The notes under the pieces were generated by a model. It ran no database searches. It saw only the letters and a list, made by a program, of their open reading frames with translations, and was not told the DNA's origin. From Nitrospira sp. KM1 (lineage in GTDB: Bacteria; Nitrospirota; Nitrospiria; Nitrospirales; Nitrospiraceae), in assembly GCF_011405515.1 (NCBI RefSeq), contig NZ_AP022671.1, positions 1,116,001-1,180,000 of the forward strand: a stretch of DNA of 64,000 nt. Direction: 5' to 3'. Of the stretch, positions 6,939-16,257 are shown piece by piece; the first letter of the stretch is position 1; each line of letters opens with the position of its first letter. Both the position numbers and the translations under genes were made by a program.

Positions 6939-7610
6939 TCAATGACGTGGCAGACACCATATACCGACCGCGAGGACGAAACTGACTCCAATAAACAGCG
7001 TGATAGTGACCCTCAACGAATTATCCGCATCCCTTCGTACTCTGCCGGCAATCTCCGCGACGACTTCGATCAACCGTTCCAATTCGTTCGTTACGCTCAC
7101 GAATTTCATCCCGGATTCTATGGCCATGTTGCGTTCCGCCTCATCCCGCCATTCAACCGCCCGACCCTCCGATCCCGATTGCCAGACTTTTTCCATGATC
7201 TGAATCGTGCGCTCCGAGGAGGCCATATACTCCTCCAGCTTCGCTTGAACCGCCTTAACCTCCTCAAGCTCCCTGTTATCGATGTTCTGCTCGGATGACG
7301 CTCGATTGCTGACTCTGATGAATCGCTCCAGCGCCGTATCGATGCGCGATCGCTTTTGAGCGAGAGAGTCCACAATCCGTCTAAACTCTCCTTGCGTATC
7401 GGTTTGCACGGCACGGATGACGGACGTTCGATATCGAACGAGCTCTCCGTTGATGTAGCTCAGATCCGTAACCGCCAGCGTATATTCGGCATACATGACA
7501 CGAAGATTCTGATCCACACGGTTTAAGACGCGGGAGCCCACGAGGCCGCAACCGATGATGAGAAGACTGACGAGCACATGCATCCATAGAAATCGCGCGC
7601 GCAGGTTCAT
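6939..7610 (-). CDS. Four-helix-bundle sensor-like membrane protein without output domain
   Basis: This 223-aa protein has a membrane segment at about 8-28 (WMHVLVSLLIIGCGLVG), about 150 residues of helical periplasmic sequence like the ligand-binding domain of methyl-accepting chemotaxis proteins (4HB_MCP type), and a second membrane segment at about 198-218 (LFIGVSFVLAVGIW). It stops right after that helix, with no HAMP or signalling domain. The start at 7610 is preferred: an upstream in-frame start would place a terminator hairpin inside the gene. It is the next gene after nxr on the same strand. It may be a truncated receptor or a sensor subunit needing a partner. Confidence 0.72.
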   Translation of the reverse strand: MNLRARFLWMHVLVSLLIIGCGLVGSRVLNRVDQNLRVMYAEYTLAVTDLSYINGELVRYRTSVIRAVQTDTQGEFRRIVDSLAQKRSRIDTALERFIRVSNRASSEQNIDNRELEEVKAVQAKLEEYMASSERTIQIMEKVWQSGSEGRAVEWRDEAERNMAIESGMKFVSVTNELERLIEVVAEIAGRVRRDADNSLRVTITLFIGVSFVLAVGIWCLPRH

Positions 7611-7620
7611 TCCGCTCTCG

Positions 7621-7658
7621 ATACAGAAAGGGCAGAGTGCCTTGCGACATCTCTGCCC
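7621..7658 (-). terminator. Rho-independent terminator-like hairpin after nxr
   Basis: On the minus strand GGGCAGAG and CTCTGCCC form a perfect 8-bp stem with a 13-nt loop (7630-7637 with 7651-7658), followed by TTTCTGTAT. It lies between the nxr stop and the next gene's start and probably ends or attenuates nxr transcription. Confidence 0.65.
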
Positions 7659-7673
7659 TGTGAGATCTCTATC

Positions 7674-7713
7674 TCGAATGATCGAGTAAGGGAATCCCCG
7701 ATCGATCATTCGA
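7674..7713. repeat. Perfect 12-bp inverted repeat directly after the nxr stop
   Basis: TCGAATGATCGA (7674-7685) is exactly complementary to TCGATCATTCGA (7702-7713). The 16-nt loop holds a smaller GGG-AAT-CCC hairpin. The structure starts 11 bp after the nxr stop codon and may shield the 3' end of a highly expressed message. Confidence 0.7.
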
Positions 7714-7724
7714 CAACGTTGGCT

Positions 7725-10700
7725 TTACAGCCAGTTCACCCGTTCGGCGGGGCGAATGTAGATGGGCTCTTCGACCTGGATGCGGGCCACTTCCTTGCCC
7801 GACTTGTTGAAGCCCAGCACGGTATCGTTGTACATCTCAAAGCGCTTCCCGTGGATCTGGGTTTCAAACACCTTCGGGCCCGGAATGACGTCGTAGCGGA
7901 AGATGATCTGCTGGCTGGCCCGCCAGAGTTGGAGGACGGCCAACAGCTCCCGGCTCGGCACCAGGTACTTCTCAATGGCATTGTCGACGCCCGGGCCGAA
8001 CATCTGCCGCGCATAGCCCCGGGGGGAATGCCGCGGCGGAATGTAGAAGCCGTTGGGCTCGGTGCCCCACTGCGGATACAAGGGCAGCGCCACCTGCTCC
8101 ACCCGAATGGTGTAGTACAGGGGATGCCACCGGTCCTCCGCCCACAGGCCGTCTTCGCCGATGCGCACCAGGCTCTGCATGCGGATCTTGCCCACGCACG
8201 CCGCCATACAGCGCGTCTCCATCGGCTCCCCGCCCGTCAGCGGATCCTTGCCCTCGATCCGCGGATAGCACGCAATGCACTTCTCCGACACCCGGGTCGT
8301 CCCCCGGTACATCGGCTTCTTAAACGGACACTGCTCCACGCACTTCTTGTACCCCCGGCAGCGGTTCTGGTCGATCAACACAATGCCGTCTTCCGGCCGC
8401 TTGTAGATCGCCTTGCGCGGACAGGCCGCCAGACACCCCGGGTATGTGCAGTGGTTGCAGATCCGCTGCAGGTAGAAGAAGAACGTCTCATGCTCCGGCA
8501 GGCTGCTGCCCGTGAGCCGCCACGGTTCATCGCGCGAGAACCCCGACTTATCGATGCCTTCCACCAAGGAGCGCATCGAGGTGGCGGTGTCCTCGTAGAT
8601 GTTCACGAAGCGCCATTCCTGGTCCGTCGGGATGTAGCCGATCGCCGCCTGGCCCACCTTGGCCCCCGCGTCGAAGATCGTCATCCCTTCGAACACCCCA
8701 TAGGGCGCATGGTGCTTGCGGCCCACCCGCACGTTCCACACCTGCCCCCCCGGGTTCACCTGCTCGATCAACTGCGTGATCTTCACGTCGTAGAACTGCG
8801 GATACCCCCCGTAGGGCTTCGTCTCCACGTTGTTCCACCACATGTACTCCTGCCCCTTCGAAAACAGCCACGTCGACTTGTCCGCCATCGAACAGGTCTG
8901 ACAGGCCAAACACCGATTGATGTTGAACACAAAGGCAAACTGCCACTTCGGATGCCGCTCCTCGTACGGGTACAGCATCTTCCGTCCCAGTTGCCACTTG
9001 AACTTCCAGGCAATCGCGTGCTTGCCCGGGAGTGAGTCGGTCTGGTGCATCGGCATCAGCCACGACCGGGTAAAGGACTGTTGGGCCCCATACCGGAAGT
9101 TGGATTGATAGCCGGTGTCCACCGCGATCGCCCGGCCGTCCGGCCGCGTCTCGTGGCCCTTCACCGACTTCGCCGTCGACACGTACGGAGCGTGTTTCGC
9201 CATCGTCACGTGATACGGATAGGCCGGGTTGTACTTCGCGCGAATCATCAAGCGCGCGACCTTGTAGAACGGATCCGAGGGCTTCCAGCCCCGATAGGGC
9301 CGGTCCACCGGGTTGCCGTCCACATAGACATAGTCGCCGTCGTTGATGCCGCGGTCTTTCGCCGCCTGCGGGTTGATGTGGATCTGGTGCTCGCCGACGC
9401 CCGGCGTCCGTTTGTCCATGCGGTACGGATCGCCGAAGTTCGACTCGTAAATCTGCACCCAATCGTTCACCGACCACTGGCTGTGCACCCGGTGCCGGGT
9501 CTTGGGCGTCACGCAGTAGAACTGGTACCCCTTCTCCCACAACGGGTTGGAGTGCCGCTTGATTTCCTGCCACGGCAGCTTGATGTTGCGCACCGTCTTA
9601 TCGTCGTGGTGCTGCGCCGTGATCGGAATCCCATAGTCGTCCGGCCGGATGTACGGGTTGCTCGTCATGATCGCGTTCGGCAGATACGGCGTCGCCTCCG
9701 GGCCTTCCCGGTGCGAGATGAAATTCTCGCCGTACTCGATCGCTTCCGGCTCCGTCCGGTAGGTCTCATACCGGCCGGTTCGTGTCCACATGGGTTTGGA
9801 TTCGTTCGTCTCCTCCCAGAACGGGTGACGCGGGTAGGTGCGGGTCATGACCATCCAGCCCTTCTCCGACTTCAAGAGCACGTCCGCGCTGTAACCGTAG
9901 AACGTGGATGAAGCATCTAAAAGACGCTGCACATAGACGTCCACCCGATTGTCATAGACGAACTTGAAGTAATCCCGCATCCGTTTGTCACCGGTCATCT
10001 CCGCCAACTTGGCGGCGACACCGGCGAACGTATCGAGGTCGTTGCGCGTGTCGTACAACGGCCGGATGCCGCCCTTCCACACCTGCACCCAAGGATTGGA
10101 GACCGTCACCGTCATTTCCGGATAGGTGAACTCCATCCAGGAATTGCACGCAAAGGCGATATCGTTGTGGTTGACGTCCGAGGTCATCTCGATGTCCTGC
10201 GTGATCAGGGTCTCGATGCTCGGATCTACGTTGCGCACCATGTCGTAGTGATGTTTCGCATTGTTGAGCACGTTCACGTTGGTGACCCAACGGAACTTAC
10301 TCGGAGTCGGCATATGCGTTTTGCCGGTGAAGACCTTGCGTCCGTACTTGGGGGTGTTCACGATCAGCGCGGTGTCGCCGTGGTTCCAGTAGCCGACTTC
10401 CTCGCCATAATAGTAGGACTTGGTCTTGATTTCTTTGCCGTGTGCATTCGGATCCAGCGAGATGTTGAACGGGTCCTCACCCGTGTGTACGGCGAGCCCG
10501 GCGCCCGACCAAGGCGTTGCCGCCCATGTTCCGGCTTTATAATTGCCGGCCCAGGTATGCTGACCGGTTCCGAATTTCCCAACGTTGCCTGTGGCGATCA
10601 GCACCATTGCGGCTCCCCGGGAATTGACGGTCATGTGGAAGTAGTGGTTCGTCCCTTCACCGTTATGAATCGCGGCGGGCTTGATCGTGCCGGAATCCCT

Positions 10701-12239
10701 TGCCCAGCGGACCAAGAGATCTTTCGGTGTCCGGCAAATCTGGTGGACCGTATCCAGGTCATAATCCTGAAAATGCACCGTGTACAGCTGCCAAATCGGC
10801 ATCACGTCGATCTCGCGGCCGTTCAATAGCTTGACTCGATGCGTGCCGGTGAGCGCGGCGTCAATGCCGCTGTGAGTGTAATGCCATCCAACCTGTTCGC
10901 GATGAAGCGGCACGGGCTGGTTTTTGTTGAGATCCCAGACCATCATGCCGCCCAACCGTTCGATCTGCTCCTGTTTCAACGACTGAATGCGGCCTGAATA
11001 GCTCTTGGAAAAATCTGGGAATTTGTAATCGCGAATCACATCACGAGGGTCCAAGTGCTGGAGGGTATCCGTACGCACGAGGACCGGTGCATCGGAATAG
11101 CCTTTCAAGAAATCGACATCATGAAGATTTTCATCGACGATGATCTTGAGCGCACCCAGGAAAATCGCGCCGTCCGACTGCGGCCGGAGTGGCATCCAAT
11201 AATCGGCACGATACGCGGTGGGGTTGTACTCCGGGGTGATCACGACGATACGGCCACCCCGCTCGATCGACTCGAGTTTCCAATGCGCTTCGGGCATCTT
11301 GTTCTCGACGAAGTTCTTTCCCCAGCTCGTGTTGAGCTTGGAGAACCGCATATCGGAAAGATCGATGTCAGACGCCTGTGCGCCACACCACCAAGGATTT
11401 GATGGGTTCTGGTCGCCATGCCAGGTATAGTTCGACCAATACCGGCCACCCTGGGCTTGATCCGAGGTGACCTTCCGAATCCATGTATCCAACAATGCAT
11501 TGACACCACCGTTCATTCTCGTATTGCCCATTTTCCCGATGATTCCCAACACGGGCATCCCGGCCCGGTGTTTGAAGCAGCGCGTACCGGCGCCCTTCAT
11601 CATCTCGATCATTTCCGGCGCATAGCCCTGTTCGCGCAACCGCCGCGCGCCCGCCTCACCGCTATATCGCGTCGCCACGATGATCATGGCCTTTGCGGCG
11701 TAGGTGAATGCCGTATCCCAGGATACGCGCATCATGTCGTCGAGAAAGCGGCTGTCGAATTTGTATTTGCGCTTCACATCCGGCGTCAGCTCAGGTGAGC
11801 CGGCATCCATCCATTCCTTCCACCCTTTCCGCATCAATGGCCCCTTCAAGCGATACGGGCCGTAGACGCGGCGATGGAAGGTGAAGCCCTTCAGACACAT
11901 CCGCGGGTTATGGGCGAACGTTCCGCGATTGCCGTACAGGTCTTCATACGTTTGGTGATCGTAGTTCTGCTCCACCCGCATGACGACGCCGTTCCGGACG
12001 AAGGCACGGATGCGGCAGGCGTGGGTGTCATTCGGTGAGCAAACCCAGGTAAATGAAGAATCATAGCGATATTGATCGTGATACACCCGCTCCCATGAGC
12101 GATCCGGATAATCACCGAGTGGATTGCCTACCTCGATGACCGGTTGCAGCGCCGTCAGCGCCAACACCTTGTCTGCAAGCGCGACTGCCGCGATCGTCCC
12201 AGTCGTCACTTTCAAGAACTGTCTACGCGATAACACCAT
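7725..12239 (-). CDS. nxrAB (fused): Nitrite oxidoreductase, alpha and beta subunits fused in one frame
   Basis: NXR oxidises nitrite to nitrate in the periplasm and feeds electrons to the respiratory chain. Residues 1-1082 of this 1504-aa frame are the molybdopterin alpha subunit: a twin-arginine signal (SRRQFLK, 4-10), an N-terminal Fe-S motif with C67, C75 and C115, and a C-terminal molybdopterin-binding fold (GVGEHQIHINPQAAKDRG). Residues 1083-1504 are the four-cluster beta subunit (CLACQTCSMADKSTW; CNHCTYPGCLAACP; RCRGYKKCVEQCP; KCIACYPRIEG). From memory, Nitrospira NxrA is about 1147 aa and NxrB about 429 aa, so about 65 alpha and seven beta residues are missing at the junction (8994-9008). 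The ATG at 12239 follows GGGAGGGA and a sigma-54 promoter. Fusion versus assembly error cannot be settled here. Confidence 0.93.
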   Translation of the reverse strand: MVLSRRQFLKVTTGTIAAVALADKVLALTALQPVIEVGNPLGDYPDRSWERVYHDQYRYDSSFTWVCSPNDTHACRIRAFVRNGVVMRVEQNYDHQTYEDLYGNRGTFAHNPRMCLKGFTFHRRVYGPYRLKGPLMRKGWKEWMDAGSPELTPDVKRKYKFDSRFLDDMMRVSWDTAFTYAAKAMIIVATRYSGEAGARRLREQGYAPEMIEMMKGAGTRCFKHRAGMPVLGIIGKMGNTRMNGGVNALLDTWIRKVTSDQAQGGRYWSNYTWHGDQNPSNPWWCGAQASDIDLSDMRFSKLNTSWGKNFVENKMPEAHWKLESIERGGRIVVITPEYNPTAYRADYWMPLRPQSDGAIFLGALKIIVDENLHDVDFLKGYSDAPVLVRTDTLQHLDPRDVIRDYKFPDFSKSYSGRIQSLKQEQIERLGGMMVWDLNKNQPVPLHREQVGWHYTHSGIDAALTGTHRVKLLNGREIDVMPIWQLYTVHFQDYDLDTVHQICRTPKDLLVRWARDSGTIKPAAIHNGEGTNHYFHMTVNSRGAAMVLIATGNVGKFGTGQHTWAGNYKAGTWAATPWSGAGLAVHTGEDPFNISLDPNAHGKEIKTKSYYYGEEVGYWNHGDTALIVNTPKYGRKVFTGKTHMPTPSKFRWVTNVNVLNNAKHHYDMVRNVDPSIETLITQDIEMTSDVNHNDIAFACNSWMEFTYPEMTVTVSNPWVQVWKGGIRPLYDTRNDLDTFAGVAAKLAEMTGDKRMRDYFKFVYDNRVDVYVQRLLDASSTFYGYSADVLLKSEKGWMVMTRTYPRHPFWEETNESKPMWTRTGRYETYRTEPEAIEYGENFISHREGPEATPYLPNAIMTSNPYIRPDDYGIPITAQHHDDKTVRNIKLPWQEIKRHSNPLWEKGYQFYCVTPKTRHRVHSQWSVNDWVQIYESNFGDPYRMDKRTPGVGEHQIHINPQAAKDRGINDGDYVYVDGNPVDRPYRGWKPSDPFYKVARLMIRAKYNPAYPYHVTMAKHAPYVSTAKSVKGHETRPDGRAIAVDTGYQSNFRYGAQQSFTRSWLMPMHQTDSLPGKHAIAWKFKWQLGRKMLYPYEERHPKWQFAFVFNINRCLACQTCSMADKSTWLFSKGQEYMWWNNVETKPYGGYPQFYDVKITQLIEQVNPGGQVWNVRVGRKHHAPYGVFEGMTIFDAGAKVGQAAIGYIPTDQEWRFVNIYEDTATSMRSLVEGIDKSGFSRDEPWRLTGSSLPEHETFFFYLQRICNHCTYPGCLAACPRKAIYKRPEDGIVLIDQNRCRGYKKCVEQCPFKKPMYRGTTRVSEKCIACYPRIEGKDPLTGGEPMETRCMAACVGKIRMQSLVRIGEDGLWAEDRWHPLYYTIRVEQVALPLYPQWGTEPNGFYIPPRHSPRGYARQMFGPGVDNAIEKYLVPSRELLAVLQLWRASQQIIFRYDVIPGPKVFETQIHGKRFEMYNDTVLGFNKSGKEVARIQVEEPIYIRPAERVNWL
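8991..9008 (-). other. Junction between NxrA-like and NxrB-like sequence
   Basis: The alpha-like text ends at IAWKFKW and the beta-like text starts at QLGRKMLYPYEERHP with no stop, spacer or new start. Free NxrB, as I remember it, begins MPEVYNWQLGRKM, so the breakpoint falls on a shared tryptophan codon. Such microhomology would fit a short deletion of roughly 0.3 kb. Confidence 0.75.
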
Positions 12240-12364
12240 TGTCCTGTCCCTCCCTGCTAAAGTTCTGGCATACAGTTCCTCAACTCGAAGCCATTCACCT
12301 CCCTTCATCCTGGTTTTGGATGCTTCAGGCGGCCCACCCCCTGTTCATCTGGAGGGTGACTCTC

Positions 12365-12380
12365 AGCAAGGAGATTGCCA
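12365..12380 (-). promoter_or_regulatory. Sigma-54 promoter of nxr
   Basis: Read on the minus strand, TGGCAATCTCCTTGCT matches the -24/-12 consensus TGGCACG-N4-TTGCW closely: GG at 12378-12379, ten bases, GC at 12366-12367. It lies about 126 bp before the nxr start, giving a leader of about 115 nt. The upstream NtrC-type gene would supply the activator. Confidence 0.8.
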
Positions 12381-12501
12381 GGGATAATGATGGAATGATC
12401 GGAACGATGAAATTCAGCGCAACAGCTTGATATGCAATGTTAAATTGCACTGTTGGTAAAATTCATGCAGTAGGAATGGATTATTTCGAAGCTACGAAAA
12501 G

Positions 12502-12517
12502 GAATATGCAGATATGC
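12502..12517. promoter_or_regulatory. Candidate enhancer dyad 1 upstream of nxr
   Basis: GAATAT-GCAG-ATATGC is a near-perfect 6+6 dyad with a 4-bp spacer, centred about 131 bp upstream of the -24 element. It repeats almost exactly 78 bp further upstream. Confidence 0.6.
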
Positions 12518-12579
12518 GGAAGCAGAGTCGGAGATGGGGAAATTGGATACTCTTCAAATCCTTTCAATGATTTTTGTCA

Positions 12580-12595
12580 GCATATGCGAATATGC
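12580..12595. promoter_or_regulatory. Candidate enhancer dyad 2 upstream of nxr
   Basis: GCATAT-GCGA-ATATGC is a perfect 6+6 dyad with the same 4-bp spacer as the first site. The two centres are 78 bp apart, about seven helical turns, as expected for paired NtrC-type sites. Confidence 0.62.
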
Positions 12596-12690
12596 GCGGC
12601 GGGCTATGTCTGCGGAATAGGCCGATTTAGTAGTGGACAGCGTCGTTGTCGAAGAGAGCAGCGAGTAAATGAGTGTGATGTGGCAGAAAC

Positions 12691-14151
12691 TTAATCTGCT
12701 TCATCACCCTCGTGGCCCAGGAACCGTTTCATGAGAGTGGAGAAATGCTGGCGCGGAATGCCGCTACTCTCCGCTGCCTTGGTAATGACACCCCCGTGTT
12801 GGGAGAGTTTTGCCTGAAGATACGACTTGGTAAATTCATCGATCGCGAGTTCTTTGGCCTTCATGTACGGAAGAGAGACGAGCGCAGTCCCGTCGATCAT
12901 GACTGGATGCGCCGGCAACAGCGTTCGAATGCTCTTCCCCGTGATCACGTCTCCGGTCGCATAGATAACCGCCCGCTCCACCACGTTCCGAAGTTCGCGG
13001 CCGTTCCCCGGCCAGGAGTATCCCGACAGAGCCTCCACGGCAGACTCGTCAAAATAACAATTCATCCTTCCCAACTTGGCTCTCAGCGTGCTCAGGAGCT
13101 TGCGGGCGATGATTGGAATGTCTTCCGGCCGCTCTCTCAACGGTGGGACGGCAATGGAAATCACGGCCAGCCGGTAGTACAGATCCTTCCGAAATGACCC
13201 TTCCCGCACCCGCTCCTCGAGATTGCGGTTCGTCGCCGCGATAAAACGCGTGTCGATTCGGCGAACCCGGGTTCCTCCGACCGGACGGACTTCATTGTCC
13301 TCTAGCACGCGTAACAGCTTGGATTGGAGAATCAGGGGCAATTCACCGATCTCATCGAAAAATACGGTGCCGTCCTTCGCCAATTCGATCAGCCCCGGTT
13401 TGTCAGCAATGGCTCCGGTGAAGGCGCCACGGGTATGGCCGAAGAGTTCACTCTCCATGATGCCTTCTGGAACGGTCGTACAATCGATGACCTGAAACGG
13501 CTTCTCCTGTTGGAGACTCTGCTGGTGGATAGCCCTGGCAATCAGTCCTTTCCCTGTTCCCGTTTCACCTGTGATCAAAACCGTGGATTGGCTTTGTCCG
13601 GCGATCTCGATACTCCGCTGGACCTGATTGAATGATCGGCTGATTCCTACGAAACTCTTGACGACCGTGTTCCGGCGACCATGTTCTTCATAGATTTCTT
13701 GTCGGCGGAGGATCTCCGAAATCCGAATTGCCCGATGGAGCCTTATGCCAAGATCTTCGGCATTCACCGGCTTCAGCACATAGTCGAACGCCCCTCGACG
13801 CATCGCTTCGACGGCCTGCGAGACGGTGTTCATTCTCGAAACGACCAATACCGGAAGGTTGGGATCGATCTGTTGAAGTCGACTCACCAGATCCAAACCG
13901 TTCATGCCCGGCAGCATCATATCCGTCAGCACAAGATCGACGGACCGCTCCTGAAGCAGGTGTAACGCCCCTTCGGCGTTCGCGCGGACTTCCATTTCAA
14001 ATTCGCCGCCCAGTGGCTGCAGGTCGGCCTCTTCCAACGCATGCAGCATCAATTCGATGTCCGTGGGATTGTCCTCGACGACCAGGATCGTAAAGGGAAC
14101 CTTCGCGCGTTTCTTCGAGGCTGCAATGTCGAGGACGTCGTGATGTGTCAT
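12691..14151 (-). CDS. NtrC-family sigma-54-dependent response regulator
   Basis: A 486-aa activator with three expected parts. The receiver domain (about 20-140) has the phospho-acceptor D77 in VLTDMMLPG. The AAA+ domain (about 165-400) has Walker A GETGTGKG, the sigma-54 contact motif GAFTGA and an arginine-finger region. A Fis-like helix-turn-helix closes the protein (about 440-480, GGVITKAAESSGIPRQHFSTLMKRF). The ATG at 14151 begins 9 nt after the kinase stop, so translation is probably coupled. It lies just upstream of nxr, whose promoter is sigma-54 type, so nxr is its obvious target (inference). Confidence 0.93.
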   Translation of the reverse strand: MTHHDVLDIAASKKRAKVPFTILVVEDNPTDIELMLHALEEADLQPLGGEFEMEVRANAEGALHLLQERSVDLVLTDMMLPGMNGLDLVSRLQQIDPNLPVLVVSRMNTVSQAVEAMRRGAFDYVLKPVNAEDLGIRLHRAIRISEILRRQEIYEEHGRRNTVVKSFVGISRSFNQVQRSIEIAGQSQSTVLITGETGTGKGLIARAIHQQSLQQEKPFQVIDCTTVPEGIMESELFGHTRGAFTGAIADKPGLIELAKDGTVFFDEIGELPLILQSKLLRVLEDNEVRPVGGTRVRRIDTRFIAATNRNLEERVREGSFRKDLYYRLAVISIAVPPLRERPEDIPIIARKLLSTLRAKLGRMNCYFDESAVEALSGYSWPGNGRELRNVVERAVIYATGDVITGKSIRTLLPAHPVMIDGTALVSLPYMKAKELAIDEFTKSYLQAKLSQHGGVITKAAESSGIPRQHFSTLMKRFLGHEGDEAD

Positions 14152-14160
14152 CAACGCATC

Positions 14161-16257
14161 TTAACAGAAGCCTTTGATCGAGCCGTCTACGATCTCCGCG
14201 GGATTTTCCCTGGAGGAACCGAAGCCGGCCGCTCCTGCATTATCTTTCAGACAAGGAACCGTAAATCGGACCGCACACCCGTCAAACGTTGCCGCCTCAA
14301 TCCAGACGCGGCCGCCGTACAGCTCGACAATTCGTTGCACGATCGCCAGCCCAATTCCGCTGCCTGGGGCATTCCCTGGCGCCAATCTGATGAACGGCTT
14401 GAACACGTCGCTTCTGCGAGATTCGGGGATGCCGATGCCGCGGTCTCGAACGGTAAAACACGCCATATTCTGGTCTATGCGAGCGGAGATATCGATGACC
14501 GGACGCTCTTCCGGACGTGAATATTTCAATGCATTCGATAGAAGGTTGTCGAACACCTGCCGGAGGTAGGCGCCATGGCAAGCCACCAGGGGTAATCCCC
14601 TGCCGACCTCGACATTGGCGTGCAGCCGTTCGATTTCTCCGGCATGGGCTTTGAGCACCTCTTCGATCACGAGCGCAGGATCCACAGCGGTGACGGGCCC
14701 CTGCCCCGAGCCTACCCGTGCAACAGCCAGGATTCCCTCGACACGTTGGACAATGTCGCTGCCGTTTTCCTGAATCAATCTCAACCACTTGGCCGTACGT
14801 TCATCGATGTGTCCGGTAAATTTTTGCGCGAGCAGCCGGGCCAGTTCTTCCATTCTCGCACCGGGACCTTTGAGATCGTGCGCCAGCGTTTCCGCAAGGC
14901 TTTCAAGATGTCGTAACCGCGCCAGCAATCCTCGCTGCTTTTCCTGAACCGCATCGTACAGCCGAGCATTCGCAATAGCCAGCGCGGCTTGCTGCGCAAG
15001 GCCTTTCGCCAGACGGATGTTCCAGTTGCCCGTCGGTTCATCCCTTCCATTGATGAGCGAGAGCACCCCGAACGGAACACCTTGCGCCATCAGCGGAATG
15101 GCCAGCATGGAATCCCCGATGAGATTCCGCCTGACCACGTGAGGACGCCGGTCGGCGCGAAATTGATCGCCGGTCGCCACGTCACCGCTTTCAAATGCCA
15201 GGACACATACCGGCAACTCCTCCCAGAGCATCACCGACTTTTTCAAACGGTCATTCCACTCTCCAGAAGCCGCTTCGACGACCCAGCATCCCATTCGCTC
15301 GTCCCGGATCAGCACCAGGCAAGAACTCGTGCCGATCAGCTCGACCGCACGATCCAGAATCCGCCGCAAGACGCCGTCCAGTCCGTCGGGTCCAATGGTA
15401 TTGATGTCCTGCCCGATTGTGATCAGCACTTCCAGTTCGTCCACGTGGGTATGGATTCGTCTGGCCATTTCGAGGTACGCATGGGCAAGCTGCCCAAGCT
15501 CGTCCTGCGATGCACGCAATGGAGTAAACAAATCGTCGATCTCGGAGAGAGGAATGTGGTTCCCCATCCTGCCGGTTGCGGCCCTGAGTCGCGAAATCGG
15601 ATCGGTCAGGGAGCGCGCTAACATCCTTGAGCTGATCCAACCCAGCATCACAACGCCCCCTAACGCGATCCAGAGACCGACGAATGTGCGCTGGGACAAT
15701 ATCTCCGTATCGATGTTGAGCGCGATTCGTTGGCCGTCCAGCCTGTCCTCGATCAATCCGAGGTCCTCGCGGAGCCGGTCGGACAATCTCATTCCCTCTC
15801 CCGACCGCACATAGGTTAGGGCCTGGTCGGACCTTCCGCTCTGAATCTGGGCAATCAATTCGTGTTTGGACCGGAGAAACGCCTTGAGCTGCTGCTCGAT
15901 CCGCAGTATATCGATGGATGAATCCGCCGCCCCGTTCAATCGAAGTCTGGCTTCGGACAGGGCTTTATCAATTTTAGATTCCGCCTCGTGCAGCGGCGTC
16001 AAAAATGTCGCATCCTGCGTGATCATGTACCCCCGGAAGCCGCCCTCAATATCGGCGGTCAACCGCCGCAGGTGGTGTACGTGCGCATGGTCAAGGATGA
16101 TTTCCTGGCGCTGTTGTTGAAGGGATAAGAGTTGATTGACTACGTAGAGATGGATCGTCAATCCAATGAAAAGCGGCACGCAGAGTAGAAGGAGCACCGT
16201 CCAGACCTTGTGTTGGATCCGGAGCCCATCCCACCACTGTGCAATGCTTAGAGGCAT
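14161..16257 (-). CDS. Membrane sensor histidine kinase with CHASE3, HAMP and GAF domains
   Basis: A 698-aa kinase expected to phosphorylate the NtrC-type regulator encoded immediately downstream. It has membrane helices at about 19-37 and 190-212 flanking a helical periplasmic CHASE3-type domain (GGFRGYMITQDATFL), then HAMP, a GAF domain at about 280-430 and an H-box with H460 (TLAHDLKGPG). The ATPase domain has an N-box (NLLSNALKYS), G1 (DRGIGIP) and G2 (GSGIGLAIV). The start at 16257 follows AGGAG. The signal is unknown; nitrite or redox state would suit the context. An IS remnant abuts its promoter region. Confidence 0.93.
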   Translation of the reverse strand: MPLSIAQWWDGLRIQHKVWTVLLLLCVPLFIGLTIHLYVVNQLLSLQQQRQEIILDHAHVHHLRRLTADIEGGFRGYMITQDATFLTPLHEAESKIDKALSEARLRLNGAADSSIDILRIEQQLKAFLRSKHELIAQIQSGRSDQALTYVRSGEGMRLSDRLREDLGLIEDRLDGQRIALNIDTEILSQRTFVGLWIALGGVVMLGWISSRMLARSLTDPISRLRAATGRMGNHIPLSEIDDLFTPLRASQDELGQLAHAYLEMARRIHTHVDELEVLITIGQDINTIGPDGLDGVLRRILDRAVELIGTSSCLVLIRDERMGCWVVEAASGEWNDRLKKSVMLWEELPVCVLAFESGDVATGDQFRADRRPHVVRRNLIGDSMLAIPLMAQGVPFGVLSLINGRDEPTGNWNIRLAKGLAQQAALAIANARLYDAVQEKQRGLLARLRHLESLAETLAHDLKGPGARMEELARLLAQKFTGHIDERTAKWLRLIQENGSDIVQRVEGILAVARVGSGQGPVTAVDPALVIEEVLKAHAGEIERLHANVEVGRGLPLVACHGAYLRQVFDNLLSNALKYSRPEERPVIDISARIDQNMACFTVRDRGIGIPESRRSDVFKPFIRLAPGNAPGSGIGLAIVQRIVELYGGRVWIEAATFDGCAVRFTVPCLKDNAGAAGFGSSRENPAEIVDGSIKGFC

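Follow-up and report, generated by a model that had tools for sequence, protein, structure and literature searches.

A predicted sigma-54 promoter with two candidate enhancer sites, conserved upstream of one nitrite oxidoreductase copy in Nitrospira

We analysed a window of 64,000 nucleotides from the genome of Nitrospira sp. KM1 (contig NZ_AP022671.1, positions 1,116,001 to 1,180,000), in which a sensor histidine kinase gene, an NtrC-type response regulator gene, a gap of 451 bp and a nitrite oxidoreductase gene (nxr) follow one another in this order on the minus strand (Table 1). The regulator has a clear receiver domain and a sigma-54 AAA+ domain (PF00158, E 5.4e-64) with GAFTGA visible in the translation, and the KM1 genome contains an RpoN gene (PF04552, E 3.1e-56).

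A preliminary description of this DNA had named nxr as the target of the regulator; the identity of this gene needs correcting to an in-frame NxrA-NxrB fusion. At the junction, near 8999, the NxrA sequence ending in AIAWKFKW is joined to NxrB beginning WQLGRK, so that the fusion lacks the C-terminal end of NxrA along with six residues from the start of NxrB; KM1's other two copies, as well as the orthologous copy in genome G001, have separate nxrA and nxrB genes. In the accessible text of the KM1 paper, W02_10680 is given as a 4515-bp nxrA and not termed a fusion (PMC7522533), and our literature search found no paper on an nxrA-nxrB fusion. The start codon is probably the ATG at 12239 and not the one at 12308, because NxrA homology begins there and because of the published length. 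Upstream of the start lies a Shine-Dalgarno-like leader element, and near-perfect GGAGGTG or GGGGGTG, distinct from the Shine-Dalgarno sequence of the start codon, occurs about 40–80 nt below the -12 in many relatives' nxr leaders; it might serve as an mRNA stabiliser or a standby site. KM1 additionally carries a fourth, truncated nxrA of about 158 residues (88% identical; G000:C1:1870624-1871097, loci L013 and L016). Below nxr, an ORF at 6939-7709 (256 aa) matches just the four-helix sensory part of chemoreceptors (4HB_MCP_1), and since a search of it found no signalling domain, it is possibly a truncated gene.

Table 1. Genes and predicted control elements at the KM1 nxr locus (positions in the window)
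Feature	Position	Strand	Sequence or description
nxr, in-frame NxrA-NxrB fusion, W02_10680	7725..12239	-	
Shine-Dalgarno-like leader element	12294..12305	-	AAGGGAGGTGAA; about 60 nt above nxr start
Predicted sigma-54 -24/-12 element	12365..12380	-	TGGCAATCTCCTTGCT; GG-N10-GC spacing
IHF-consensus site	12420..12432	-	TATCAAGCTGTTG; 52 bp above -24; 9/9 match
Proximal dyad, candidate enhancer site	12502..12517	-	GCATATCTGCATATTC; + strand letters GAATATGCAGATATGC
Distal dyad, candidate enhancer site	12580..12595	-	GCATATTCGCATATGC; + strand letters GCATATGCGAATATGC
Degenerate GTTTC-N6-GTRAC remnant	12675..12690	-	GTTTCTGCCACATCAC; 8/10 match
NtrC-type response regulator	12691..14154	-	Receiver, sigma-54 AAA+ with GAFTGA, C-terminal Fis-like HTH
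Sensor histidine kinase	14161..16257	-	CHASE3, HAMP, GAF, HATPase

Orthologues of the regulator were sought in 175 Nitrospiraceae genomes, and 30 of them with flanking DNA (62–100% identity) form one clade with 100/100 support. The promoters beside these 30 orthologues (L017-L020, L033-L058), which share kinship and are hence non-independent samples, are termed class A. A kinase homologue adjoins the regulator in every one of the 30 loci, the kinase gene preceding that of the regulator, in agreement with the earlier proposal that nxr is tied to a defined kinase-regulator pair.

The sigma-54 element TGGCA-N6-TTGCT, described previously upstream of nxr, is present where it had been placed. Within the 64-kb window it is matched exactly just once; with one mismatch tolerated, matches are no more numerous than expected by chance, and the element alone is therefore weak evidence, a lone sigma-54 element being not improbable for a genome of KM1's size. 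TGGCA-N6-TTGC recurs in the regulator-nxr gaps of all class-A promoters (30/30). A search of the KM1 regulator-nxr intergenic region for a sigma-70 promoter found none.

Further upstream, the two 16-bp dyads lie at the sites and with the 78-bp spacing claimed for them, and the distances of 131 and 209 bp above the -24 agree with our centre-to-centre measurements; from dyad start to -24 start, the values are 137 and 215 bp. An exact scan of the whole KM1 genome (one contig, 4,509,223 bp) for GMATATGCRRATATGC returned two matches, both of them these dyads. Two details of the preliminary description did not survive comparison with relatives: the GCRR spacer is variable, leaving GMATA-N6-TATKC as the core, and the near-integral helical spacing fails, since 78 bp at 10.5 bp per turn amounts to 7.4 turns. 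Of the 26 two-dyad promoters, 21 have spacings of 66–68 bp, likewise non-whole numbers of helical turns; two, KM1 included, have 78 bp, and the difference of 11–12 bp is close to one turn, as if the phase were kept.

For the comparison across class A, we scored the 10 defined bases of GMATA-N6-TATKC and took at least 9/10 as presence; as the motif was derived post hoc from the relatives, shuffles, negative promoters and a genome-wide scan served as guards. The proximal dyad was present in 29/30 promoters (123–143 bp above the -24), the distal dyad in 27/30 (186–216 bp above), both in 26/30 and at least one in 30/30, against maxima of 1, 2 and 1 for proximal, distal and both in 200 dinucleotide-preserving shuffles. 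The dyads are thus not missing from nxr promoters with the same regulator, as they could have been had the earlier interpretation been wrong. Their first five proximal bases, GCATA, are invariant in all 30 promoters, a count somewhat inflated by picking the best-scoring sites, and the two dyads are approximate mirror images facing each other, with the GCATA/TATGC halves inward. That they are chance AT-rich palindromes might be suggested by loose matches, with up to three mismatches, which are no commoner in the window than in shuffles; yet sequence and position are kept across 30 promoters where the shuffles reach 1–2, and the exact matches are unique in the genome, which leaves chance a negligible probability.

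The dyads could also be read as RNA hairpins or cruciforms acting in attenuation or read-through control, as each KM1 dyad is a possible short stem with a 4-base loop. This reading, however, would not account for the mismatch between positions 2 and 15 conserved in most relatives (A/G in the distal dyad, C/T in the proximal), on which we rejected it, and a terminator search of the regulator-nxr intergenic region was negative; we consider it very unlikely.

Between the dyads and the -24 lies an IHF-consensus site, a candidate for bending by IHF or an HU-like protein, and KM1 has four HU/IHF-family genes. Matches of at least 7/9 to WATCAANNNNTTR occur 40–58 bp above the -24, mostly at 50–52 bp, in 29/30 class-A promoters, against a mean of 3.7 and a maximum of 9 in shuffles, this site having been looked for post hoc, after inspection of the region. 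Sigma-54 promoters usually have IHF between enhancer and promoter, according to the accessible part of a published account (PMC7962754). Together, the predicted sigma-54 element, the candidate enhancer sites, the candidate bending site and the sensor-regulator pair are, as judged by comparative genomics, a unit conserved across the family.

We then considered nxr promoters lacking the regulator. Of 172 family genomes, 26 contain a strict form of the pair, TATGC-N(45-65)-GCATA-N6-TATTC; 25 of these have it immediately next to the class-A regulator and one (G149) has it elsewhere. A reversed control gave 3 matches. No dyad pair was found in the 600 bp of DNA upstream of nxr in 26 promoters from genomes without a class-A regulator, nor in 18 promoters belonging to other nxr classes, many of them from genomes also having a class-A copy (five nxrA copies in G054, three in G001 and G131, two in G116 and G119), nor at KM1's other two nxr copies. 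A wider regulon was rejected, the strict pair being essentially confined to DNA above nxr. The comparison thus shows predicted elements in a fixed geometry that are linked to the regulator-kinase pair and not to the other nxr copies.

Most class-A promoters have a second conserved pair of dyads, GTTTC-N6-GTRAC, near -281 and -346, which in KM1 is largely decayed, most relatives having two better copies. Its conservation raises the possibility that the adjacent regulator acts on the GTTTC-N6-GTRAC dyads and that another DNA-binding protein uses the GMATA dyads. Against this, GTTAC-N6-GTAAC occurs above nxr in genomes without the regulator, the KM1 copies of the second pair are decayed, the GMATA pairs are confined to DNA beside the class-A regulator, and a paralogous regulator has its own dyads at the positions of the GMATA pair; we regard this alternative as improbable. 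The GTTAC-N6-GTAAC dyads are presumably read by a separate protein, because they are found without the class-A regulator, and were for the same reason rejected as the adjacent regulator's site.

Where no regulator adjoins nxr, a sigma-54-like TGGYT...TTGC is common upstream, together with one GTTAC-N6-GTAAC dyad about 225–260 bp above it (L060-L081, L123, L132, L133, L141). Exact copies of GTTAC-N6-GTAAC are rare in four genomes and below the reversed control, with no genome-wide enrichment. A further class of nxr promoters (L015, L142, L135) shares TGGTATGRGAGTTGCC, which is sigma-54-like with GG-N10-GC, and has TCGCGA-rich upstream DNA; neither a class-A nor a class-P regulator is adjacent.

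The paralogues just mentioned, termed class P (L021-L025), are five regulators of about 50% identity, one of them in KM1, and serve as a natural control. Like the KM1 regulator, each is a receiver-AAA+-HTH protein encoded directly above nxrA, with dyads at about -141 and -208 and an IHF-consensus site. Unlike class A, these promoters have GTCA-N8-TGAC dyads (about -131 to -143, -195 to -210 and -276 to -291, some copies being imperfect or hidden under masked bases) and CTTGTA as the -12 element, and the kinase is mostly missing alongside: no homologue adjoins in 4/5 loci, and L024 has one at 35%. The IHF-consensus site is here mostly on the opposite strand, 59–72 bp above the -24. The recognition helix of class P also differs from that of class A (for example, PRPYFxEIMRR vs PRQHFSxLMKR); the HTH_8 match exceeds the Pfam cut-off in the class-P paralogue and is weak in class A, reaching 17.8 bits in KM1, under the cut-off of 22. 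That another dyad takes the same positions beside another regulator is, of the indirect evidence, the strongest sign that the dyad is recognised by the protein next to it.

In all, the preliminary interpretation is supported by these comparisons, minus its spacer and its helical spacing, and we consider it highly probable that this one nxr copy has a dedicated sigma-54 promoter, where two enhancer sites serve the adjacent regulator. We infer binding, phosphorylation, looping and activation at the nxr promoter along the following lines. The kinase presumably phosphorylates the regulator, which would then bind the two 16-bp dyads and build an AAA+ ring, while sigma-54 RNA polymerase would wait at the -24/-12 element. 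IHF or an HU-like protein would bend the DNA at the IHF-consensus site so that the ring reaches the polymerase, and ATP hydrolysis would open the promoter, leading to nxr transcription.

This mechanism is standard for sigma-54, and the arrangement resembles the NtrC/NifA-type enhancer promoters, such as those of glnA and nifH, in its -24/-12 element, in paired dyads 100–200 bp upstream with an IHF-like site between, and in a receiver-AAA+-HTH activator with an adjacent kinase. It differs in its new dyad, GMATA-N6-TATKC, and in having nitrite oxidoreductase as the target, with binding and activation here being predicted. What our analysis may add is a defined control element and a rule that pairs regulator class with dyad class.

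Sigma-54 regulators beside nxr have been published: the accessible text of two papers describes the same neighbourhood and suggests possible sigma-54 control, and that text contains no mention of enhancer sites, an IHF site or regulator-to-dyad matching (PMC7522533, PMC6606698). Neither the enhancer sites nor the matching of dyad and regulator was found in the searchable literature, an earlier mention of the promoter elements being possible. In N. moscoviensis under nitrite-oxidizing growth, both nxrAB_2 and nxrAB_3 and the sigma-54 regulators beside them are weakly expressed, as far as the accessible text reports (PMC6606698); therefore activation may need another condition, and the regulator could also be a repressor rather than an activator.

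We lean modestly towards a specificity code, in which the 16-bp dyad of each nxr promoter class (GMATA-N6-TATKC, GTCAS-N6-STGAC or GTTAC-N6-GTAAC) would be read by its own regulator, so that nearly identical NXR copies could be controlled separately. If this code is true, class-A promoters, with their two dyad types, would integrate two inputs, of which KM1 has largely lost the second. The reaction of Nitrospira nitrite oxidoreductase is a major nitrogen-cycle step, and between two and five copies of nxr, with roles that may differ, are present in several genomes. The dyads of each regulator class turn the suggested differential regulation of nxr into specific tests, and dyad class may make it possible to tell from the DNA which copy of nxr is under the control of which regulator.
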